Position numbers and translations under genes: made by a program. From positions 1-34,879 of the forward strand of contig JAOUKN010000014.1 in the NCBI GenBank assembly GCA_029882515.1: DNA of 34,879 bases. Direction: 5' to 3'. Source of the DNA: Candidatus Bathyarchaeota archaeon (GTDB taxonomy: Archaea > Thermoproteota > Bathyarchaeia > Bathyarchaeales > Bathyarchaeaceae). Shown one piece after another: positions 9,030-19,615 of this stretch. The notes under the pieces are model-generated. The model saw nothing but the letters and a program-made list of their open reading frames with translations. It did not search any database and was not told where the DNA came from. The first letter of the stretch is position 1. Every line of letters starts with the position of its first letter.

Positions 9030-9116
9030 GGACGCTAACCTCAGAAGTCCCTTATAGTTGTCTTAACATAAGATATGAAGAAGTATTAAAAAGCATAACG
9101 TAAGAGAGAACTCTGG

Positions 9117-10868
9117 TTAATCTTTAATTGGTTGTCCCAAACCATCAAAATCGATTTGATATTTGAGGTAAGCACGAAGCAGTTCAGGAAGTTCTTCAAT
9201 AGCCGTTCTAACTTGCTTCCATGTGTCACGGTCACGTATGGTCACCGTGTCATCTTTGAGAGTTTGATAGTCCACTGTTACCCCAAGGGGGGTTCCTATC
9301 TCGTCAGCACGTGCATAACGTCTTCCAATTGACCCAGATTCATCGTATTCTGTCATAACTCTTTGATCCATCAACAGTTGATAGACCTGTTTTGCTTTTT
9401 CAGGCAATTCATCTTTGTTCAAAAGGGGGTAAACACCTACTTGTATGGGTGCAAGGTCTCGTGGAAGAGTGAGTAAAGTTCTTCCTCGCTTCTTCTTGTA
9501 AGCATATTCGAGAGCTATGTAAACTAGTCTATCAGAGCCGAAACTCGGCTCTACAACGTGAGGAATAAATCGCTTTCCGTCTTTTTTCACTTTTGTGCGC
9601 ATTATTTTGACATGTTCTGGAAGAATTTTGAACCCTTTTAGCGAATAGAAGGCTTTTCTCTTTAGTGCCATCTGGACTTTTTTTGGATCGGCATTGGACA
9701 AGAGTCTAACAATCTCTGAGGCTTTTCCTTTGAAAGCCGGACCAATTTTAGGCATCACAGGTTGGATTGTTACCTCTTCTTCCCAAACTGGTTTTTCATA
9801 TTCTTTGAATACTGTCATATCGACACCACTGAATTCCATATGTCTTCTTAAGTCGAAGTCTGTACGGTAATTATGACCAGAGACTTCTACCCATCCCCAT
9901 CTTTCCAAATATATTTCTTGATCGAATCCTTGCAGGGAATAGTGTGCTCTTTCCCAATCCAGTTTTTCAATAAAACGTTGTTTGTCTTCCGGTACTCCAA
10001 GCTCCATTAGGAATCTTTTGGATAAAGCCATGAAAAACGCTTGCCACTCAGCCTTAATATGTCCCTGGTTCAACGCTTCTTTAACAGTAACTTCCACAGA
10101 CTCTTTTTTACCCTTTAATTTGGTCCCAGCTGTTAGTAGTCTCAAAGTTTCGTTTTCTACATCCTTCAAGAGAGGACAGTTCGAGTCCTCTGGATCGAAA
10201 AAGAACTCTACATCCATAATTGTGAACTCCCGCAGTCTAATTAGACCTTGCCTCGGCGAAATCTCATTACGCAATGCGTGACCGATCTGAAAAACTCCAA
10301 AGGGAAGATTCTCTCGGGCATAGTCACACAAGCGTCTAAATTCTACAAAGATTCCTTGCGCAGCTTCAGGACGACCATATCCAGTTGCCTCTGAGTATGG
10401 TCCGATGGTTGTTGTAAACATTGTCATGAAATGTTTAGCTTTACGAAAATCTCCATCGCATTCTGGGCAATGGACGTTGCGTTGCTTAATTTTGTCCATT
10501 AACTCTTTGAGGGTGAGTTTTTCCGTTTCCGTGTCGCTCATCCCAGCGATTTCTTGAAGGAGGTGATCAGCTCGAAATCCACGCTTGCAGTCTCTGCATT
10601 CGACCATTGGTTCCCTGAAATGGTCCACATGTCCAGATGCTTCAAATATTTTTCCAGGTGTAATCACTGAGGATTCAATCTCAAAAATGTTAAGCCGGCG
10701 TGTGAAAAAATGCCGAAATTTGTCTTCAATTTTTCTTTTAACTTTTGAACCCAATGGACCAAAGGTGTAGAAGCCTCCTACACCTCCGTAAATTTCATAG
10801 GAAGGCCAGAAATAACCTCGACGTTTTGCCATCTCACTGATTAGCTCGAACTTGTCAGAAGCTGGCAC
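9117..10868 (-). CDS. glyS: Glycyl-tRNA synthetase (dimeric, archaeal/eukaryotic type)
   Basis: Attaches glycine to tRNA-Gly. The 583-residue class II synthetase starts with the typical segment AKRRGYFWPSYEIYGGVGGF. Zinc-ligand cysteines C91/C94 and C134/C137 lie in the insert. Motif 2 is FGVFQIGHALRNEISPRQG, motif 3 lies in EPSFGSDRLVYIALEY, and the anticodon-binding domain begins at LAPIQVGVYPLL. Length and order match the alpha-2 form. It is transcribed alone from a promoter upstream of 10868. Confidence 0.97.
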   Translation of the reverse strand: MPASDKFELISEMAKRRGYFWPSYEIYGGVGGFYTFGPLGSKVKRKIEDKFRHFFTRRLNIFEIESSVITPGKIFEASGHVDHFREPMVECRDCKRGFRADHLLQEIAGMSDTETEKLTLKELMDKIKQRNVHCPECDGDFRKAKHFMTMFTTTIGPYSEATGYGRPEAAQGIFVEFRRLCDYARENLPFGVFQIGHALRNEISPRQGLIRLREFTIMDVEFFFDPEDSNCPLLKDVENETLRLLTAGTKLKGKKESVEVTVKEALNQGHIKAEWQAFFMALSKRFLMELGVPEDKQRFIEKLDWERAHYSLQGFDQEIYLERWGWVEVSGHNYRTDFDLRRHMEFSGVDMTVFKEYEKPVWEEEVTIQPVMPKIGPAFKGKASEIVRLLSNADPKKVQMALKRKAFYSLKGFKILPEHVKIMRTKVKKDGKRFIPHVVEPSFGSDRLVYIALEYAYKKKRGRTLLTLPRDLAPIQVGVYPLLNKDELPEKAKQVYQLLMDQRVMTEYDESGSIGRRYARADEIGTPLGVTVDYQTLKDDTVTIRDRDTWKQVRTAIEELPELLRAYLKYQIDFDGLGQPIKD

Positions 10869-11738: not shown

Positions 11739-12809
11739 TTGAGAAGATTGAATCACCAAGACTTGATAGATCTCGTTAATGGCGCTGCCATACTTTCAGC
11801 CGGCGGTGGCGGAGATCCTAAAATGGGACACAAAATTGTTGACACATTAATTGAGGAAGGTCATGTGGTAAACCTCGTTGATCCCAATGAGGTACCAAAT
11901 GATGCTGCAGTTACAAATTTCGCGTGTGTGGGAGCCACCACGACAGTGGGGTACGACAGTAACGCTGCGACCCAAACGGTTCACGCATTGGAACAATATG
12001 TAAAGCAAAGGTTTTACGCAGTAATTCCCGTTGAACTCGGAGGATTCAATACGTTGGCAGCCGTTGACGTGGCGGCTAGGCGAGGAATACCAATTGTCGA
12101 CGCTGATGGAGCAGGACGAGCGGTTCCAGAGGTTCATCTCAAGGTTTACACGATAGATAACATCCCGTTGGCACCTATGGTAGTAGCTGACCTTCACGCC
12201 CGAAATGTTGTCATAGTGAAGAAAACGCAAGATTCCAAGTCAGCGGAAAGGATTGCTCGAATCCTGGCCACAGAATGGGATCAAAGTGCCTACACAGCCC
12301 GAAGAATCTTAACGGGAAAACAAGTGAAAACCTCTCCAATCTTGCGTTCCCTTTCTACATCGATTAGGACTGGTACGTTACTGCGGAAGGCTGTGGAGCC
12401 AATAAAAGCAGTGCTCAAAGAAACTGGTGGCTTCAAACTTTTCGAAGGCAAGGTGAAAAAGATCGAAAGGAAGACGGAAGCTGGCTTTACATGGACAAGG
12501 ACCACACTGGAAGGAACACACGAATACAAAGGTTCAAGGTTTGAGTTTCAAGCGAAAAATGAGGTTCTCGTTGCCTATAAAGATAATAGACTTGTTGCCC
12601 TTGCCCCCGACATCATAGTGCCAGTACATCATGAGACGGGGAAATGCATTACGGCCGAAAAAATTGAGAAAGATGAAAAGCTGGTGATCTTGGGTATTCC
12701 AACTCCACAGAAGTGGAGAATCCCCAGAGGGCTGGAATTATGGAAAGATGTCCTAGAGCGATCTGCCATAAAGGAAACCTACACTCCAATTGAACAACTT
12801 AACAAGTAG
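11739..12809 (+). CDS. DUF917 family protein (S-methyl thiohydantoin desulfurase-like)
   Basis: A 356-residue protein of the DUF917 (PF06032) family. The hallmark N-terminal segment is AAILSAGGGGDPKMG, with VELGGFNT and the DADGAGRAVPE segment near residue 128; the last is the likely active-site region. Relatives are linked to hydantoin metabolism, and one group is described as S-methyl thiohydantoin desulfurase; the substrate here is unknown. The TTG start gives an N-terminus that aligns with the family (LNHQDLIDLVNGA). It lies alone, convergent with the redox operon on the right, and has normal coding composition despite the AT-rich spacer before it. Confidence 0.88.
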   Translation: MRRLNHQDLIDLVNGAAILSAGGGGDPKMGHKIVDTLIEEGHVVNLVDPNEVPNDAAVTNFACVGATTTVGYDSNAATQTVHALEQYVKQRFYAVIPVELGGFNTLAAVDVAARRGIPIVDADGAGRAVPEVHLKVYTIDNIPLAPMVVADLHARNVVIVKKTQDSKSAERIARILATEWDQSAYTARRILTGKQVKTSPILRSLSTSIRTGTLLRKAVEPIKAVLKETGGFKLFEGKVKKIERKTEAGFTWTRTTLEGTHEYKGSRFEFQAKNEVLVAYKDNRLVALAPDIIVPVHHETGKCITAEKIEKDEKLVILGIPTPQKWRIPRGLELWKDVLERSAIKETYTPIEQLNK

Positions 12810-12887: not shown

Positions 12888-13157
12888 CTAAGTAGCTTGA
12901 CCACATTTTAAAATGGCATCTTCAAGGTCTTTCTCGTCAAAATCTGGCGTGAGCTTGATTTTTCCATCTACTACCACACACATGTCTTGAACTCCATATT
13001 TAGAGGCTTCAGGCGACTTGGTAGACTTTGTCTGGACTTCTACGAAATCTTTAAACTTTGATGTTACCTGTCCCACTTTTTCCATAAGTGGCGCGAAGTT
13101 ACAGACGCAGGAGCCTAGAGGCACAAACACTTCAACTTTCACTTTGTTTGGTTTCAT
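12888..13157 (-). CDS. Small thioredoxin-like protein with CVC site
   Basis: An 89-residue protein with a compact thioredoxin-like layout: beta strand KVKVEVFVP, a redox or metal site at C17-V-C19, helix, strand FVEVQT, then YGVQDMCVVVDGKI where thioredoxins normally carry a cis-proline. Here that Pro is replaced and C60 is present; C85 lies near the C-terminus. It resembles the small redox-active disulfide proteins found with ars permeases, but the CxC spacing is unusual and could bind As(III) or another soft metal. It is the last gene of the eleven-gene minus-strand operon, one base after ccdA. Confidence 0.75.
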   Translation of the reverse strand: MKPNKVKVEVFVPLGSCVCNFAPLMEKVGQVTSKFKDFVEVQTKSTKSPEASKYGVQDMCVVVDGKIKLTPDFDEKDLEDAILKCGQAT

Positions 13158-13158
13158 T

Positions 13159-13863
13159 CTACCATCCTCCTAATACGTAGCCTATCATGACTATGCCAAT
13201 TACAACAAAGGCTATTCCAAAAATCTTTGTTAGCCATTCGCCTGCCACAGCAGTTCTCTTACTTACTGCTTTGCGTGCAGTAGCTAATAGCACACACAGT
13301 AATATGACCGGTAAGGCGTGACCAAGACCAAAAGCGAATAGCAAAAGTCCACCGTGAAAAGGTGTCGGCGCACTGAATATAGTTAGTAGTATGGCTGGCA
13401 GAACCAAAGATAAGGAGCATGGACCTAGGGCTAGTGAAATAACTACTCCGAAAAGAAATGAACCAGTTGCATAGTTGTATTTTGAAAAGCGTGTCAGAGC
13501 GGTTAACTTCAAAGCATTTACTCGTTCGGTAAGAGAGTTACTGGCATTGCTGGCAATCTTGATTCTCTTGAATAAGCCTATGTTGTTGATTCCAAAGAAT
13601 ATGAGAAGAAGACCTGCCATGCCGAAGAAGAATCGTGTGCTTGTCGGATCAGCTACGGGAATTAGAGAGGATACGGCGTATCCGAGAACAAAGAAAACCA
13701 GACACATCGCTATAGTGAAGCTGCAGCCAATTATGAAGCCCTTACGTATGCTCTTGCTGACGCCCAGGGCATATGTCAAGTAGACTGATATTAGAGCAAT
13801 AGAGCATGGTGAAAGAAAGGTTACGATTCCAAGAATGAATAAACCTAAAGACTCCTCAAGCAC
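13159..13863 (-). CDS. CcdA/DsbD-type membrane thiol-electron transporter
   Basis: A 234-residue membrane protein with about six membrane helices in two repeats. Each repeat carries the hallmark Pro-Cys: FLSPC (C20) in helix 1 and LALGPC (C149) in helix 4, the redox pair that moves electrons across the membrane in CcdA. The neighbours are thioredoxin-like proteins on either side, one cytoplasmic and one probably facing outward, a classic arrangement for such a relay. An ArsG-like permease, which belongs to the same superfamily, is an alternative given the ars context; the intact PC pair favours thiol transport. Confidence 0.88.
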   Translation of the reverse strand: MLEESLGLFILGIVTFLSPCSIALISVYLTYALGVSKSIRKGFIIGCSFTIAMCLVFFVLGYAVSSLIPVADPTSTRFFFGMAGLLLIFFGINNIGLFKRIKIASNASNSLTERVNALKLTALTRFSKYNYATGSFLFGVVISLALGPCSLSLVLPAILLTIFSAPTPFHGGLLLFAFGLGHALPVILLCVLLATARKAVSKRTAVAGEWLTKIFGIAFVVIGIVMIGYVLGGW

Positions 13864-13870
13864 CTTTTCA

Positions 13871-14575
13871 TCATGCTCCTAAAAGCTGACTGATCTTTGA
13901 CGACAGTGTATCAGCAGTTATCGCGTCAGTGTATACTTTGGCTACATCGAAGACTTTGTCTATGAGAACGATTGTTCCATCTTGTATAGAGTATTTCTTG
14001 TAGGCCTCAACTATATCCATTTTTTCATCGGCGTAGTCGTTTCCTAAGACCCAAGTGATACCGTAGTTTGCTCGGATTTGCGCAAGATCGCTATTTTGAC
14101 AGGTTGCTACAGCAACGGTGACGACAGTAACTGGTTTGCTACCACAATAGCCGTTACACACAGTTTTCAGTTGGTTAAGTTGGTGGTCGTTTATGGGATA
14201 GATTTGTCCATGGCAACCCACAGCCATAAAATGAATAGCAATCACCTTCCCACTAAATTGATTAAGAGAGAATTGAGTCCCGTCTATATCTCTCAGAGAG
14301 AAGTTTGGAGCTGAGCCAGTCGGTGGAGGATTGTTTCCTCCATTGCTGATTGGTGGAGGAAGTTGACTGTTATGGTATTGCCATGCTCCATATGCCACAA
14401 ATACTATGGCAATTAAGCAGATTGCCCCAAGTATTTTTCCTTTAGGCCATTTTCTCGGTTTTGCTCTTTCTCGTTCTCTCTGTATTTGATAAGTCTCTTG
14501 TGCCTTCTGCTGACTTATCTGTTTCTCTTTCTGTCTTTCCCTCCAACTTTTCTTCTTCCTTTTCTTCTTAGGCAA
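13871..14575 (-). CDS. Membrane-anchored redoxin (TlpA/AhpC-TSA type)
   Basis: A 234-residue protein with a very basic cytoplasmic N-terminus (1-47), one membrane helix (about 48-64), a Pro/Gly/Asn-rich linker (70-88), and a redoxin domain (PNFSLRDIDG onward) outside the membrane. The active-site position reads VGCHGQ (C121-x2-Q124), so the second Cys of a CxxC is missing. C140, C144 and C159 could supply the partner. It is the likely outward-facing partner of the adjacent CcdA protein. Peroxidase, metal-delivery or thiol-repair roles are all possible. Confidence 0.82.
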   Translation of the reverse strand: MPKKKRKKKSWRERQKEKQISQQKAQETYQIQRERERAKPRKWPKGKILGAICLIAIVFVAYGAWQYHNSQLPPPISNGGNNPPPTGSAPNFSLRDIDGTQFSLNQFSGKVIAIHFMAVGCHGQIYPINDHQLNQLKTVCNGYCGSKPVTVVTVAVATCQNSDLAQIRANYGITWVLGNDYADEKMDIVEAYKKYSIQDGTIVLIDKVFDVAKVYTDAITADTLSSKISQLLGA

Positions 14576-14585
14576 TTCTTCTCCC

Positions 14586-14831
14586 TCATAATGCTACATT
14601 TATTTTTTTGGGTCTGAACGGGTGACAATGGCTCTCATCAATTATTTTTATCAAATCAACCAGTATGTCCTGTGCTTCGGCTAACAAATCTTCATTCTTT
14701 TCATCTGTGGCTCGCAAGTTCTTGATGAACGACTCGATTTCCACTTTCAGTGACAGAAGGTCGCTGTTGCTCTCTTTACGCTTAGCATCTCTGTATTTCT
14801 TACGTATTTCCTCAAAACGTGCTCTATTCAT
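14586..14831 (-). CDS. Small helical protein, 81 aa
   Basis: A short, charged, mostly helical protein (ARFEEIRKKYRDAKRKES, then an acidic amphipathic helix to about residue 65) ending in SHCHPF, a possible metal ligand group. It lies 10 bases before the redoxin gene and 4 bases after the GcvH-like gene, so it is embedded in the operon. No family was recognised; it may be an adaptor or subunit. Confidence 0.7.
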   Translation of the reverse strand: MNRARFEEIRKKYRDAKRKESNSDLLSLKVEIESFIKNLRATDEKNEDLLAEAQDILVDLIKIIDESHCHPFRPKKINVAL

Positions 14832-14835
14832 TTAA

Positions 14836-15303
14836 TTACCTCTTTTTTCCCAGCTTCTCTTTTTCCGATTCGACCTTTCTTTTCAATACTTCAAAGTATT
14901 TTTGGGCATCCAGAAGATTTTCTCGGTCGCTTTCGAAGTCTTTGAGCTTCAAAACGGCGAACCATCCTTCTCCATACGGATCTTGATTTACAAGCTCAGG
15001 CCTTTCTGACAATTTCTCATTGATCTCGACTATGATGCCACTCACAGGCGATATCAAGTCAAGAATGGCTTTCGAGGATTCGAAAGAAGCCACTTCATCC
15101 AGTTGCTCAATTTCTGTGCCAACATCCTTGAATTCCACAAATATAATGTCAGTAGCCATGCTTTGAAGGAAATCCGTAATTCCCACCCTTGCTTTGGGTC
15201 CCTCTATTTTCGCCCAACAATCATTTTCATTGTAAAGCAGATCTTTTGGTACTCGAAAAGTCCATTTTAGAATCTTGAGTTGATAAGAGTCTTCGTTTTT
15301 CAA
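14836..15303 (-). CDS. GcvH-like lipoyl carrier protein
   Basis: A 155-residue protein with the full H-protein fold: a DCWAKIEGPKARVGITDFLQ segment, FVEFKDVGTEIEQ, then the lipoylation loop SFESSKAILDLISPVSG with K78 at the position of the lipoyl-lysine, and RPELVNQDPYGEGWF. A charged helical extension of about 35 residues follows. No gcvT or gcvP is nearby, so it probably does not serve glycine cleavage; H-like carriers of this sort (LbpA) also work in sulfur-oxidising Hdr-like systems. Its dihydrolipoyl dithiol would bind arsenite tightly, which fits the ars context. Role inferred, family certain. Confidence 0.88.
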   Translation of the reverse strand: MKNEDSYQLKILKWTFRVPKDLLYNENDCWAKIEGPKARVGITDFLQSMATDIIFVEFKDVGTEIEQLDEVASFESSKAILDLISPVSGIIVEINEKLSERPELVNQDPYGEGWFAVLKLKDFESDRENLLDAQKYFEVLKRKVESEKEKLGKKR

Positions 15304-15307
15304 CCAC

Positions 15308-15709
15308 TCACTTCCTTAAAATCTTGTCAATCAAGAGAGCTGTTTCATCAGCGATTTTTGCTGCAAGTTTTTCTCCTTCAGGACCAATTTCTGCAGATGC
15401 TTTTGGTTTCAACCCATACTTTTGAACACTTTGCGGAATGAATACTCTTCCTCTTATTCTACCTCCATTTTTTGCGACGATCTTTGTCGCACAACGTTCA
15501 GGACATCCATCAATCGTAATAACCGGATATTTCTTAATCCATTCAGAATGAGGGGTGGCACCAATAACAAGAGGGGGAACACAGACTAGGACAGAATCTT
15601 CTGGCTTCAACTCTTCCACTACCTTGAAAGCGCAAGCACGAGCCACCGAACCCAGTGGTTTGTCCATTCCTGCACAGGCGACAATTGCAACTTTTTCTTC
15701 TTTACTCAA
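15308..15709 (-). CDS. DGC-domain putative zinc-binding protein, copy 1
   Basis: A 133-residue member of the DGC family (PF08859). Four cysteines shared by all three tandem copies are C12 (ACAG), C43 (VLVCVPP), and C69 and C73 in IDGCPERCA; C26 is specific to this copy. The family is usually annotated as zinc-binding, and its biochemical role is unsettled. The three copies, separated by 14 and 6 bases, suggest a multi-subunit complex or three substrates. It lies 4 bases before the GcvH-like gene. Confidence 0.85.
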   Translation of the reverse strand: MSKEEKVAIVACAGMDKPLGSVARACAFKVVEELKPEDSVLVCVPPLVIGATPHSEWIKKYPVITIDGCPERCATKIVAKNGGRIRGRVFIPQSVQKYGLKPKASAEIGPEGEKLAAKIADETALLIDKILRK

Positions 15710-15723
15710 TTACTGACGCCTCT

Positions 15724-16137
15724 TCACTTTTTTCTTCCCAAGATTTCGTCGACTTTTGCCGCGATTTCCTCTGCAACTTTAATAGCAAGTTTCTTTTCTT
15801 CGGCACTGAGATTGTCTCTTGATTTCGTTTTTAGATGGGGATATTTTTTCATAATTTCTGAAACAACAATTACTGCAACTGGTTTGCCGCTGTATTCTTT
15901 GGTTCCAACCTCTGCACATCTTTTGTCGCATCCATCGACAGCAATCGTTGGAAATACTCTTGCGAAGGCTCTTTCATCCTCGCTTCCCGCAAGAAACAAC
16001 GGAAGGCATATAGTTACCGTATCGTGCGGTCTCAGTTTCTCCAACACAAGGCGGGTGGCGATGCGGGATATAGTGCCTTCAGGTAAATCCTCACCGCTGC
16101 AGGAGACTACTCCCACCTTGTCTTTTACTATAGTCAA
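15724..16137 (-). CDS. DGC-domain putative zinc-binding protein, copy 2
   Basis: A 137-residue paralogue of the flanking genes. The conserved cysteines are C13 (VSCSG), C44 (ICLPLF), and C70 and C74 in VDGCDKRCA, followed by the shared C-terminal helix ending SAEEKKLAIKVAEEIA. Its sequence differs enough from copies 1 and 3 that the duplication is old. It lies in the same operon with a 14-base gap to copy 1 downstream and 6 bases to copy 3 upstream. Confidence 0.85.
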   Translation of the reverse strand: MTIVKDKVGVVSCSGEDLPEGTISRIATRLVLEKLRPHDTVTICLPLFLAGSEDERAFARVFPTIAVDGCDKRCAEVGTKEYSGKPVAVIVVSEIMKKYPHLKTKSRDNLSAEEKKLAIKVAEEIAAKVDEILGRKK

Positions 16138-16143
16138 TCATAT

Positions 16144-16551
16144 TCACCTATTGTTGTTTATTTCATCGATTCGCCCAGCAATTTTTTCAGCTAAAATGCT
16201 GGCAAGCTTCAATCCTTTTGGACCCAACTCGGTAACACCTTCTGGTTTCAGACCCCTGTTTTCTCGCAAAACGTCGGTGACCACGAAGCTGGCTACGAGC
16301 TTGCCTTTAGAAGATTCTATGTTTTTGCGTGCACACTGAAAAGGGCAACCGTCGACAGATATGCAAGAGTTGTTTCTTGCAAGTTTTAGAACTGCTTCAT
16401 CCCTAATTGTTAACAGAGGAAGACAAACAGTAGTAGCCTCATTTGGCCGAAGCTTTTCCACAACTTCATACATGGCAGCTCTGCCAACGGTTCCCAAAGC
16501 CTTCCCAATTCCACTGCACGGAATTACGAATACCTTTCCATCCTTTAACAT
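16144..16551 (-). CDS. DGC-domain putative zinc-binding protein, copy 3
   Basis: A 135-residue paralogue. The conserved cysteines are C12 (IPCSG), C43 (TVCLPL), and C69 and C73 in VDGCPFQCA; C63 is extra. It shares the ELGPKGLKLA C-terminal motif with copy 1. It is the first of the three in transcription order, 11 bases after the ferredoxin gene. Confidence 0.85.
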   Translation of the reverse strand: MLKDGKVFVIPCSGIGKALGTVGRAAMYEVVEKLRPNEATTVCLPLLTIRDEAVLKLARNNSCISVDGCPFQCARKNIESSKGKLVASFVVTDVLRENRGLKPEGVTELGPKGLKLASILAEKIAGRIDEINNNR

Positions 16552-16562
16552 ACGACTACCTT

Positions 16563-16829
16563 CTAATAATCCCTAAGTTTCTTTATTAGGGCTAAGACTT
16601 CCTTCTTTTCTGGAAAATGTAATGCGTTGGGTGCGCATACTTTCTTACAAGAACGGCAAAAAACGACACAGTTGTTTGGGTTTTCAACAACCAATTTCTT
16701 TGGCTGTCCCTTTACTGCATATACTCTGTGAGGGCAGAACTTTAGGCATTGAGGGTCGTTGTCGCATAAATTGCATTTGTCGTAGTCTATTTTTGGATAC
16801 CATGGTATCTTGCTGCGAGGTACACCCAT
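16563..16829 (-). CDS. Two-cluster ferredoxin-type protein
   Basis: An 88-residue iron-sulfur protein. The first cluster site is C19-x2-C22-x5-C28-x3-C32-P and the second C54-x3-C58-x2-C61-x3-C65, so two [4Fe-4S] clusters with atypical spacing. It likely carries electrons between the HdrA-like protein encoded just upstream and the DGC or lipoyl proteins downstream, a role inferred from gene order. Confidence 0.85.
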   Translation of the reverse strand: MGVPRSKIPWYPKIDYDKCNLCDNDPQCLKFCPHRVYAVKGQPKKLVVENPNNCVVFCRSCKKVCAPNALHFPEKKEVLALIKKLRDY

Positions 16830-16839
16830 GTAGGTTTCT

Positions 16840-17217
16840 TCAGACAGTTTCCGCAGCCTCCTCTATGGCTTTCTTTACCACTTTAAGCGCGTCTTCGGTT
16901 TTCATGTCTCTGACATCTAGGGGAATCAGGTCTTTCTTCACATCAAGCCCAGCAGCTTTGAAGGCGTCTCGAAATAGTTTCTTCTGCATCACTGGAGCGC
17001 AACCGGTGATGATGTATTTTCTGCCTTTCTTCAGAAATTCGGCTAGAAACCGGTCTCCATCTTCGTCACAGAGCATGGGATGCACAAAGGCGTATTCAAC
17101 TGGATATTCGGCTCGAATAATATTGATGAAGTCCCAAATATCCATTTTAGAAAACCCGGGACATTTCCCAGTGCATACACATAAGATGAACCCCATTTTC
17201 TGCTTTTTTTCCACCAT
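16840..17217 (-). CDS. Stand-alone HdrA N-terminal-like Fe-S protein
   Basis: A 125-residue protein that matches the N-terminal domain of heterodisulfide reductase subunit A. Visible are FILCVCTGKCPG (C13, C15, C19), PMLCDEDGDRFL (C50), and IITGCAPVMQKKLFRDAF (C73). The FAD-binding part of HdrA is absent, so this is a free-standing domain rather than a truncated enzyme: its start and stop are clean and the next gene follows after 10 bases. It probably binds a [4Fe-4S] cluster and acts in electron transfer or disulfide chemistry. Confidence 0.8.
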   Translation of the reverse strand: MVEKKQKMGFILCVCTGKCPGFSKMDIWDFINIIRAEYPVEYAFVHPMLCDEDGDRFLAEFLKKGRKYIITGCAPVMQKKLFRDAFKAAGLDVKKDLIPLDVRDMKTEDALKVVKKAIEEAAETV

Positions 17218-17229
17218 GAATATCTCTGC

Positions 17230-17400
17230 CTAGTTTTCTCTGCAATCAAGACAAAGATTACCGTCCACATTAGTCCAGAAGACTTTCCCACACTTTGCGC
17301 ACATAACTTTCTTCAACAAATCTTTCTTCGGTTTGGCCGCTCTTAAAACATCTGAGACTCTTTGAGTACATGCGCACGTGCCCTTGTCCCTTTCACTCAA
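17230..17400 (-). CDS. 56-residue zinc-ribbon protein (TTG start)
   Basis: A short gene that opens the minus-strand operon. The TTG at 17400 has a strong GGAGAGGT ribosome site 8 bases before it (17416-17409). The protein has C9-A-C11 near its N-terminus and a C-terminal zinc ribbon of C34-x2-C37 and C50-x2-C53 (CAKC, CLDC), ending REN. Its stop is 12 bases before the HdrA-like gene. It may bind zinc or arsenite; the CAC pair echoes the CVC of the neighbouring ArsR and thioredoxin-like proteins. No family was recognised. Confidence 0.75.
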   Translation of the reverse strand: MSERDKGTCACTQRVSDVLRAAKPKKDLLKKVMCAKCGKVFWTNVDGNLCLDCREN

Positions 17401-17443
17401 TGGTAGTTACCTCTCCGAGTTTAGTGAGAACACCATGTAGGGC

Positions 17444-17479
17444 AACATATTTATATATTTTGTTTTGTTAATGTAACAA
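17444..17479 (-). promoter_or_regulatory. Promoter and operator-like sites of the leftward redox operon
   Basis: On the minus strand TATATAAATA (17457-17448) is a TATA box that would start transcription near 17426, about 26 bases before the TTG at 17400. It overlaps AACATATTTA (17444-17453, plus strand), which is identical to one half of the arsR operator. An inverted repeat TTGTTA-ATG-TAACAA lies at 17465-17479 between the two divergent promoters. Confidence 0.6.
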
Positions 17480-17496
17480 CTCACGTGCGAGCTGGA

Positions 17497-17514
17497 AACA
17501 TATTTAAATATGTT
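17497..17514 (+). promoter_or_regulatory. 18-bp perfect palindrome: ArsR operator overlapping TATA
   Basis: AACATATTTAAATATGTT is a perfect inverted repeat. Its centre is the TATA box of arsR (TTTAAATA, 17503-17510), so a bound repressor would block TBP. The ATG of arsR at 17539 lies about 30 bases downstream, giving a leaderless or nearly leaderless transcript. Confidence 0.75.
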
Positions 17515-17538
17515 CAAATCACTTTCAAGTGTCGAAAT

Positions 17539-17928
17539 ATGATATCTAAATCCAAAGTGAGCAAACGACTTAATCGATTGATAAAATCTGGGATTTGCCC
17601 TGCAGAAGATGCTCTAAAATATGCAGATGAGTTGAAGCAGATGGCCAATGAGATCGCAAGTGTTGAAGCCGCTGATAAGCAACACAGGTTTTTCAAGGCT
17701 CTTGCTGACGAGACACGTTTAAGGATTTTAAGTCTTCTCGAAGTCCGTGAGATGTGCGTGTGTGAGGTAATGGTCGCGTTAGACCTAACGCAACCCACTG
17801 CTTCTCATCACCTAGGTCTTCTAGAAAATGCAGGATTAGTCAAGGATAGAAAAGAAGGAAAATGGGTCTTTTATAGCCTCGCAGACCCCAAATTGCTTGA
17901 GGGCATGCATAAACTGAAAATTCTGTAA
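17539..17928 (+). CDS. arsR: ArsR-family metalloregulator
   Basis: A 129-residue winged-helix repressor. The ArsR metal-binding box reads VREMCVCEVMVAL with C73 and C75, the As(III)/Sb(III) ligands of classical ArsR, followed by the recognition helix TQPTASHHLGLLENAGLV and the wing RKEGKWVFYSL. A GTG at 17485 is also in frame, but it precedes the palindromic operator and TATA box, so the ATG at 17539 is chosen. An N-terminal helical extension (1-45) with C20 may add to dimerisation or sensing. It probably represses itself, acr3 and the leftward operon. Confidence 0.9.
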   Translation: MISKSKVSKRLNRLIKSGICPAEDALKYADELKQMANEIASVEAADKQHRFFKALADETRLRILSLLEVREMCVCEVMVALDLTQPTASHHLGLLENAGLVKDRKEGKWVFYSLADPKLLEGMHKLKIL

Positions 17929-17988
17929 GCAGTTGACGGTATTGCGTCTTTTCAAGGCGACGTACTTCATGTTGATTTGTAACGATAG

Positions 17989-18000
17989 ATTTAAATATGT
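17989..18000 (+). promoter_or_regulatory. acr3 promoter with ArsR-site match
   Basis: ATTTAAATATGT is an exact 12-base match to part of the arsR palindrome and forms a TATA box 75-85 bases before the acr3 start. This suggests a separate ArsR-controlled promoter for the exporter. Confidence 0.6.
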
Positions 18001-18074
18001 AAATGCGACATTCTAATTGGCACGACCTCAAGGGCATCTCTTGAAAATGAGAATTCTGCAGGAGAAGTACAACC

Positions 18075-19109
18075 TTGACAGAGAAAAAGGAAGCCAAGCT
18101 CGGGATTTTTGAGAAGTACCTTACCTTGTGGATTGCCATCTGCATCGTTGTTGGCCTCTTACTAGGAAGATTTTTCCCAAGATTTGGGCAGTATCTGGAC
18201 TCTTTGAAATTCGCCAAATTGTCGATTCCGATTGGTATCTGCCTTTTTTTCATGATGTACCCAACAGTTGTAGGCATAGCCTTCAGCGACATTAAGAAGG
18301 CGGTGAGAAAGCCAAGACCAATGCTCCTCACAATAATTGCAAATTGGGTCATCGCTCCCCCCATAATGACTCTCTATGCAAACCTGCTTGTTGCTGATCC
18401 AATTCAAAGAGCAGGCATCATTCTTCTCGGTATGTCTCCTTGCACTGCAATGGTTATGTGGTGGATGCTGCTTGCTAAGGGAGACCTAGCCCAGGGACTA
18501 ATAAATACAGCTATCAATGCATTGCTGATGGTTATTCTCTATGCGCCTATGTCAGCATTCTATTTAGGAGTGAGTGGTATTCCGATTCCATGGGATTTGA
18601 TCGCCATCAGTGTAATCATTTTCATAGCTCTTCCAGTGTCTCTAGGGGCGGCTTCCAGAAAGCTGCTAATAAGAAGGAAGGGGAAGGAGTGGTTTGAGTC
18701 CACTTATCTTGAACTTGTACGCAGAATATCCATTATCGCGCTCTTGCTTACTCTAATCGTCATGTTTTCCTTTCAAGGAGAGATCATCCTCAACAATCCG
18801 CTCCTAGTAGCTTCTCTAGCAGCTCCAAATTTGCTCCATTACGTTACAATGATCGCAATCACTTATACAACCTCCTGGCTGTCAAACTGGGACTACGCAA
18901 CATCAATAGACACCACTCTCATCGGGTCAAGCAGCCATTTCGAGGTCGCCATCGCAGTCGCAACAACACTTTACGGTCTCAATTCAGGCGCTGCCTTAGC
19001 TACAGTGATAGGACCTCTAATGGAAGTTCCGCTAATGCTGGCTCTCGTAAGGGTTGGTCTACGAACGCGCCATCTGTTTCCAAGGAATAAAAGGAAAGCC
19101 AATATATGA
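18075..19109 (+). CDS. acr3: ACR3-family arsenite efflux permease
   Basis: Exports As(III) using the proton-motive force. The 344-residue protein has about ten membrane helices. Family marks are PIGICLFFMMYPTVVGIAF, the conserved Cys in SPCTAMVMWW (C123), and the C-terminal GLNSGAALATVIGPLMEVPL. The TTG start is supported by AGGAGA 9 bases upstream. The canonical RCIAMV segment is slightly diverged here, so antimonite or another thiolated anion cannot be excluded as substrate. It lies 146 bases after arsR with its own promoter. Confidence 0.9.
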   Translation: MTEKKEAKLGIFEKYLTLWIAICIVVGLLLGRFFPRFGQYLDSLKFAKLSIPIGICLFFMMYPTVVGIAFSDIKKAVRKPRPMLLTIIANWVIAPPIMTLYANLLVADPIQRAGIILLGMSPCTAMVMWWMLLAKGDLAQGLINTAINALLMVILYAPMSAFYLGVSGIPIPWDLIAISVIIFIALPVSLGAASRKLLIRRKGKEWFESTYLELVRRISIIALLLTLIVMFSFQGEIILNNPLLVASLAAPNLLHYVTMIAITYTTSWLSNWDYATSIDTTLIGSSSHFEVAIAVATTLYGLNSGAALATVIGPLMEVPLMLALVRVGLRTRHLFPRNKRKANI

Positions 19110-19288: not shown

Positions 19289-19495
19289 TCATGGTCGCTC
19301 AGCGACGAACGCTATCTTGACATTGGTCTTGTAAGAAGCGATCTTGTTTTTCTCAACCTTAGCAGTCCAGCCGACAACATCCATTCCCACGATGTTTCTC
19401 ACCGTTTTAGAAGCTTCAGTTAATGCTTTTTCAGCGGCCTCCTGCCACCCTTCCGTAGAAGAGCCAACAAGTTCTATAATCTTTACAATAGCCAT
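19289..19495 (-). CDS. Dodecin (flavin-binding)
   Basis: A 68-residue dodecin that forms a hollow dodecamer storing flavin. It matches the family throughout: KIIELVGSSTEGWQEAAEKA, then ASKTVRNIVGMDVVGWTAKV and YKTNVKIAFV. The ATG at 19495 is preferred over 19501 because GGAGG (19509-19505) is then 9 bases away. It is a single-gene unit, convergent with acr3. Confidence 0.92.
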   Translation of the reverse strand: MAIVKIIELVGSSTEGWQEAAEKALTEASKTVRNIVGMDVVGWTAKVEKNKIASYKTNVKIAFVAERP

Positions 19496-19615
19496 ACGCA
19501 TTCACCTCCCTAGATAATTCAGACATACAAATATGAAAAAGTAGGTTTATTTATCATTTTGTCATACCCGGAGGCTTTGGTTAGAGCTTACTTCAAGGCA
19601 AAGAAGGGGGTAGAA

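Follow-up and report, generated by a model that had tools for sequence, protein, structure and literature searches.

In sHdr-LbpA sulfur oxidation, a GcvH-like lipoyl carrier is encoded together with Hdr-related genes and dedicated LplA (lipoate ligase) genes (Cao et al. 2018, PMC6067878). In the SirTM-GcvH-L operon, a lipoyl carrier accompanied by its own ligase belongs to a stress-linked redox operon and is independent of glycine cleavage (PMC4518038). Here we describe a gene set, or cassette, in which a carrier of this kind is found beside arsenic genes. It was noticed in the window, a stretch of 34,879 nucleotides from a Candidatus Bathyarchaeota archaeon (contig JAOUKN010000014.1), where eleven minus-strand open reading frames (ORFs) running from 17400 down to 12888 diverge from arsR and acr3 on the plus strand (Table 1). 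Six of them form a core, made up of an HdrA N-terminal-domain protein (HdrA-N), a ferredoxin of the 2x[4Fe-4S] kind, three DGC proteins that differ from one another and a lipoyl carrier of GcvH type. We are highly confident that this set makes up a redox module which is both conserved and linked to ArsR. With the balance evenly poised, it may also be an undescribed, ancient, lipoic-acid-dependent arsenic-transforming complex of anaerobes, in which the ferredoxin, HdrA-N and the three DGC proteins would drive the lipoyl arm.

In its logic, sHdr-LbpA is the nearest known system. As there, the operon set has a GcvH-like carrier with a conserved lipoyl lysine, and a lipoate ligase gene is linked to the cassette at 16 loci (TIGR00545, 435 bits), although in the window's own genome this gene lies on contig C91, unlinked to the operon. 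Unlike sHdr-LbpA, the cassette core is without the FAD domain, HdrB/HdrC and TusA/DsrE, and is found with three DGC proteins and ArsR/ACR3 instead; neither HdrB nor HdrC occurs among the window genes or the annotated recurrent neighbours. Membership of sHdr-LbpA was rejected on the grounds that the N-terminal domain of HdrA stands alone, with no FAD domain and no HdrB/HdrC; the cassette may nevertheless work in a related way. The SirTM-GcvH-L operon likewise has a lipoyl carrier outside central metabolism, but the cassette has ferredoxin, HdrA-N, DGC and arsenic genes, and no macrodomain or sirtuin is present among its annotated recurrent neighbours. With ars operons (ArsR, ACR3, ArsC, ArsM, ArsP, ArsD/ArsA) the locus shares the regulator, the arsenite efflux pump and a metalloid-binding Cys pair, the As(III)-type CVCE of the window ArsR, with CxC present in most core-adjoining ArsR proteins; to our knowledge, lipoyl carriers, HdrA-N proteins and DGC sets are not among the characterised ars functions. 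The selenocysteine-assisted organometal (SAO) cluster of anaerobes is likewise a redox cluster, linked to organometals and arsenic. Near the cassette of Caloramator lies a permease resembling SaoE, which scores 129.7 bits where the cut-off is 325, and the Sao models gave no match to any protein of the cassette core at E ≤ 1e-6. The sequence-only reading had called parts of the set familiar from ars loci and knew of no described system with the whole composition, and indeed no description was found in the literature searched, outside which lay preprints and most subscription papers, so that the view of the cassette as new and undescribed is provisional.

Relatives were found with the 125-aa HdrA-N protein as query against public genomes (54–97% identity), and profiles for the neighbouring genes were built iteratively from the same loci. 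The search returned 66 loci in 13 lineages, seven of them archaeal (Bathy-, Loki-, Thor-, Heimdall-, Sigyn-, Jord- and Nezhaarchaeota) and six of them bacterial phyla (Bacillota, Acidobacteriota, Actinomycetota, Planctomycetota, Bacteroidota and Armatimonadota). The core genes follow the order HdrA-N, ferredoxin, then GcvH carrier and DGC genes in nearly all loci, and neighbours usually overlap, with median spacings of −8 nt (HdrA-N to ferredoxin), −4 nt (ferredoxin to GcvH), −1 nt (GcvH to DGC) and −1 nt (DGC to DGC). The isolates Caloramator fervidus DSM 5463, Lucifera butyrica and Candidatus Formimonas warabiya also carry the core. Conservation of the neighbourhood had been set beforehand as one test on which the proposal should stand or fall, and the recurrence of the six-gene core in 13 lineages upholds it. 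Many loci are contigs of metagenome-assembled genomes (MAGs), some from close relatives, and the counts are not of independent events. Distant forms of the core will have been missed, because the relatives were found via one protein at an identity of at least 54%. The HdrA-N tree is mostly lineage-ordered: its 12 groups require at least 11 label changes, and 13 are seen. Plasmid-borne spread was considered and set aside, no plasmid record matching the HdrA-N protein.

HdrA-N itself has no Pfam match, and an NCBIfam match at E 0.004 only. Its family profile matches solved HdrA chains (7bkb_A, E 3.9e-4), and its predicted fold (pLDDT 90.9) matches the N-terminal domain of 7bkb HdrA (TM 0.74, E 3.8e-5); the fold matches in the PDB below E 0.001 are HdrA chains alone (7bkb, 5odc, 8rvy; TM up to 0.74). 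Its original designation as HdrA-N-like was therefore right, despite the missing Pfam model. The protein has the N-terminal domain fold and Cys motif of HdrA and stops there, without the FAD/thioredoxin-reductase domain. Residues C13, C15, C19, C50 and C73 are invariant in 66 sequences, and mean column identity is 57% (30 sequences) versus 34% for the DGC proteins. In the ferredoxin, all eight cluster Cys are invariant (55 sequences). The near-invariant Cys residues of the core, together with the lipoyl Lys of the carrier, make up the pattern expected of cofactor-bearing electron carriers.

The carrier of the window scores above the cut-offs of both gcvH models (PRK01202, 138.5 bits against 117; TIGR00527, 127.3 against 115.85). 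About 98% of 60 carriers have its lipoyl Lys (K78), as do all 39 aligned fusions. In 53 of the 60, a DGC domain precedes the GcvH domain in one fused protein, which is the usual form outside Bathyarchaeota; by position, the window's DGC3 and GcvH, two separate proteins, are the counterpart of such a fusion elsewhere. The fusion of Caloramator scores 107.9 bits with TIGR00527, under the cut-off. Dihydrolipoyl dehydrogenase is encoded immediately upstream of the core in nine loci, mostly in Bacillota (TIGR01350, 496 bits); many bacteria have genes for this enzyme and for lipoate ligase next to the core. The operon carrier resembles the glycine cleavage H protein in passing the GcvH subfamily cut-off and in having the lipoyl Lys, but its lineage is usually DGC-fused and has no GcvP or GcvT at the locus. 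The window genome encodes GcvP on contig C14 and another GcvH on C106, with no GcvP at the operon, and the operon carrier forms a lineage apart from the other GcvH proteins of that genome. GcvP was not found in 8 of the 36 cassette genomes, some of which may be incomplete. In view of the separate lineage and of these eight genomes, glycine cleavage is unlikely to be a role of this carrier and was set aside as the main one. Another contig of the window genome (C145, locus L122) encodes two further GcvH-like proteins (9105-9719 and 9716-10345), apparently without the lipoyl Lys (VETWMFMFDLYSP, VETWWFVHDLYSP), which adjoin two HdrA-like proteins of about 1000 aa, a GltD-like iron-sulfur (Fe-S) flavoprotein and two MvhD/FlpD-type proteins with ArsR-like helix-turn-helix tails.

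All three DGC proteins of the window score 54.4–54.6 bits with PF08859 (gathering cut-off 27), and every DGC match in the window genome falls inside the operon. Four Cys in each (C12, C43, C69, C73) are kept in 98–100% of 105 sequences. The DGC-domain tree splits by position into three lineages, each common to archaea and bacteria; position labels change 6 times, against a minimum of 5 and a shuffled mean of 54. Because these positional lineages are common to both domains of life, three non-interchangeable DGC subunits seem to be old. DGC1 of the window belongs to lineage a and DGC2 to lineage b. The DGC3 of Bathyarchaeota forms its own branch, not nested in lineage c, and is equivalent to the c-type DGC by position only. 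In Lokiarchaeota loci L043, L045, L046, L049, L050, L054, L058, L060 and L067, an extra DGC gene and a CVC thioredoxin gene follow arsR on the strand opposite to the core.

Arsenic genes recur near the core. Of the 57 loci whose contigs reach 10 kb or more, 54 have an arsenic gene or one of the ArsR family no farther than 10 kb from the core, and 32 have ACR3; one locus (L095/L113) is counted twice among the 57. After arsR, ACR3 is the commonest arsenic gene near the core. Its density in a sample of one archaeal class, which serves as the chance background, is about 0.31 per Mb, or about 0.006 expected per 20 kb. As to co-variation of the operon with acr3, proposed at the outset, ACR3 is present in 32 of 36 cassette genomes; in the class of the window, which is a different sample, 85 genomes out of 201 have it. 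ArsC-type genes of the low-molecular-weight protein tyrosine phosphatase (LMW-PTP) family lie near 11 loci, an ArsP-family permease near 6–8, and ArsA/ArsD near the core once. Immediately before the core, some Acidobacteriota have an ArsM joined to a thioredoxin of ArsE type; in the fusion of L080 the arsenite methyltransferase score is 351 bits and the C-terminal thioredoxin is of the MTH895/ArsE type.

In the window, arsR probably starts at ATG 17539 rather than at GTG 17485, a start which leaves about 138 bp of intergenic DNA common to arsR and the leftward operon. Two palindromes are found between the divergent genes, of which the perfect one is a candidate for a shared ArsR operator; 0.04 such palindromes, with up to three mismatches, would be expected in the window. 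Seven relatives (L034, L037, L038, L040, L041, L052 and L056) have palindromes with the same core, ATATTTAAATAT, in the DNA that separates arsR from the cassette. The perfect palindrome may serve as operator for ArsR, as a TATA element or in both ways.

The gene set and its order, the cofactor residues, the fusion, the three DGC paralogues, the arsenic linkage and the lipoylation genes are computed observations. From them we infer a single complex, a direction of electron flow and an arsenic reaction, be it the reduction of an arsenical, the handing-over of As(III) or the supply of thiols. The six core proteins would constitute a single redox complex, anaerobic and controlled by ArsR. The ferredoxin would take in low-potential electrons, which in Bacillota could also come from NADH via the adjacent dihydrolipoyl dehydrogenase. 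Passing through the HdrA-N domain and the Cys sites of the three DGC subunits, each of a different type, the electrons would then reduce the swinging lipoyl arm of the carrier, a GcvH-type protein that in most lineages is physically joined to one DGC. The dihydrolipoyl dithiol of the arm could either reduce an oxidised arsenical or hold As(III) as a dithiolate, after which trivalent arsenic would exit via ACR3 or be passed on to ArsM. At loci that have them, the redoxin–CcdA pair and the CVC thioredoxin would act as partners. It is probable that the core proteins form one ferredoxin-to-lipoyl complex; that this complex acts directly on arsenic, by reduction or dithiolate chemistry, is a tentative suggestion to which we give slightly less than even weight.

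Should this be correct, lipoyl groups, the textbook victims of arsenic, become part of arsenic defence with an electron supply of their own, lipoate gains a role in metalloid detoxification, and the DGC proteins (PF08859) gain a first function. The cassette offers a testable role both for these proteins and for the stand-alone HdrA-N domain. Its broad spread across Asgard archaea, Bathyarchaeia and six bacterial phyla may matter for the cycling of arsenic in anoxic sediments and soils, and its recurrence beside arsenic genes in unrelated bacteria and archaea points to an undescribed, oxygen-free form of arsenic handling.

A number of observations weigh against an arsenic-transforming complex. 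Six of 79 loci have no visible ars gene, all six being on contig pieces shorter than 12 kb; in three of them the core sits at the very edge of its contig. The LMW-PTP family includes one class of ArsC; proteins of this type are encoded in 31 of the 36 cassette genomes and in 131 of the 201 class genomes, and a simple replacement of arsenate reductase by the cassette is not supported. The ATATTTAAATAT palindrome looks like an archaeal TATA element. The predicted fold of the type a DGC (pLDDT 96.4) has no PDB match at E ≤ 0.001, and with no solved relative the DGC ligand (Fe-S, Zn or As) is therefore not assignable.

Other roles can be considered for the same proteins. ArsD hands As(III) to ArsA, and on this model the dihydrolipoyl arm and the Cys-rich DGC proteins might act as an As(III) chaperone or sponge, capturing As(III), passing it to ACR3 and shielding the cell's other lipoyl enzymes, whilst the ferredoxin and HdrA-N merely keep thiols reduced. 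Lipoyl dithiols are a classic target of As(III), and the four near-invariant Cys of each DGC and the frequency of ACR3 on long contigs fit such a role. A 2x[4Fe-4S] ferredoxin, HdrA-N and dihydrolipoyl dehydrogenase exceed the needs of a carrier, however, and the stronger conservation of HdrA-N than of the DGC proteins suggests catalysis over binding; we regard the chaperone as unlikely. Much the same modest weight falls to a general anaerobic dithiol supply, a ferredoxin-dependent counterpart of thioredoxin reductase which would feed ArsC, ArsM and ArsE/CVC-type thioredoxins and, via CcdA and redoxin, extracytoplasmic thiols. Thioredoxin-like genes lie near many loci (CVC type 23, Thioredoxin_3 20), a CcdA-containing cluster is near the core in 16, and the ArsM–ArsE-type fusions of Acidobacteriota and the ArsC-type genes near 11 loci also fit this reading. 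There is, however, no universal thioredoxin partner, many loci being without any, and most have no ArsC or ArsM nearby.

The arsenic-transforming complex must also be weighed against a different substrate, such as methylated arsenicals, antimony, thioarsenates or a sulfur compound; the link to ArsR would then reflect co-regulation. The ArsP-family permeases would suit this, as would the resemblance of the core to Hdr-lipoyl sulfur chemistry and an AcsV-related, corrinoid-activator-like protein shortly after the core and arsR in Thorarchaeota L092 (13345-14952; 381 bits, under the cut-off), whose tie to methyl-arsenic chemistry is a guess. Yet corrinoid genes are sporadic, and it is ACR3, a pump for As(III) and Sb(III), that most often accompanies arsR near the core; such a substrate seems improbable. 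A neighbourhood made by chance or by assembly, without joint function, might be suspected from the many MAG contigs, but the same order in 13 lineages including isolates, the overlapping genes and the fusion effectively refute it, and we give it almost no credence.

The sequence-only reading treated the eleven genes as one unit. The ORFs, tightly packed and divergent from arsR, were confirmed, with successive gaps of 12, 10, 11, 6, 14, 4, 4, 10, 7 and 1 nt, and the ArsR link stands; the set consists, however, of six conserved core and five accessory genes rather than a single unit. Homologues of the zinc ribbon are confined to Bathyarchaeota loci or the window's class-mates, and those of the 81-aa helical protein to Bathyarchaeota, whilst the redoxin has strong homologues in Bathy- and Lokiarchaeota and the CxC of the CVC thioredoxin is kept in 26 homologues from Bathy-, Loki-, Thor- and Sigynarchaeota. 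In most lineages the HdrA-N–ferredoxin–DGC–lipoyl core occurs without the redoxin/CcdA side, and because of this no single electron path from the cytoplasm to the outer face, as had been envisaged, is demonstrated. Such a path could be limited to groups in which the accessories co-occur, namely Bathyarchaeota and some Lokiarchaeota. One single-contig relative (G200, locus L120) has the accessory set beside arsR, retaining zinc ribbon, redoxin and CVC thioredoxin, with the core gone except for about 33 codons of HdrA-N. Here (~9590-9990) HdrA-N ends at a GCGCGCGCGC run and the sequence picks up at the end of the 81-aa gene, reflecting either a deletion or an assembly artefact.

Table 1. Coordinates of the cassette, its neighbours and candidate regulatory sites in the window, followed by the methyltransferase–thioredoxin fusions preceding the cassette in Acidobacteriota (locus coordinates).
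Feature	Position	Strand	Basis or remark
Zinc-ribbon-like protein, 56 aa, first gene	17230-17400	-	Weak match, E 0.005; Bathyarchaeota-only accessory
Core: HdrA N-terminal-domain protein, 125 aa	16840-17217	-	Profile search, predicted fold, invariant Cys
Core: 2x[4Fe-4S] ferredoxin	16563-16829	-	Fer4_6, E 4.6e-6; cluster Cys
Core: DGC protein type a	16144-16551	-	PF08859, 54.6 bits; clade a SH-aLRT 93
Core: DGC protein type b	15724-16137	-	PF08859; clade b SH-aLRT 99
Core: third DGC protein, adjoins lipoyl carrier	15308-15709	-	PF08859; positional counterpart of GcvH-fused DGC elsewhere
Core: GcvH-type lipoyl carrier	14836-15303	-	GCV_H, 125.8 bits; motif ESSKA, lipoyl Lys78
81-aa helical protein	14586-14831	-	No family match; Bathyarchaeota-only accessory
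Accessory: predicted membrane-anchored ResA/AhpC-like redoxin without CxxC	13871-14575	-	Weak AhpC-TSA/ResA scores
Accessory: CcdA/DsbD_TM membrane protein	13159-13863	-	DsbD_TM, 53.9 bits
Accessory: thioredoxin-like protein, CVC motif	12888-13157	-	Weak family score; C-V-C, not CxxC
arsR	17485-17928, probable start ATG 17539	+	HTH_5; As(III)-type motif CVCE
acr3, arsenite efflux pump	18075-19109	+	TIGR00832, 324.7 bits, cut-off 282.8
Perfect 18-bp palindrome AACATATTTAAATATGTT, candidate shared ArsR operator	17497-17514		Between arsR and operon
Second, imperfect palindrome copy	17444-17461		2 mismatches; overlaps TATA-like stretch of leftward operon
Methyltransferase–thioredoxin fusion, L080	8900-9994		
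Methyltransferase–thioredoxin fusion, L094	8900-9994		
Methyltransferase–thioredoxin fusion, L089	3472-4752		
Methyltransferase–thioredoxin fusion, L090	3190-4284		

The first available start codon is TTG in five of the eleven operon ORFs and GTG in one. At the borders of the locus, a gene for an S-Me-THD-like protein (11739-12809, plus strand) ends opposite the last operon gene, and a dodecin gene lies just past acr3 (19289-19501, minus strand).

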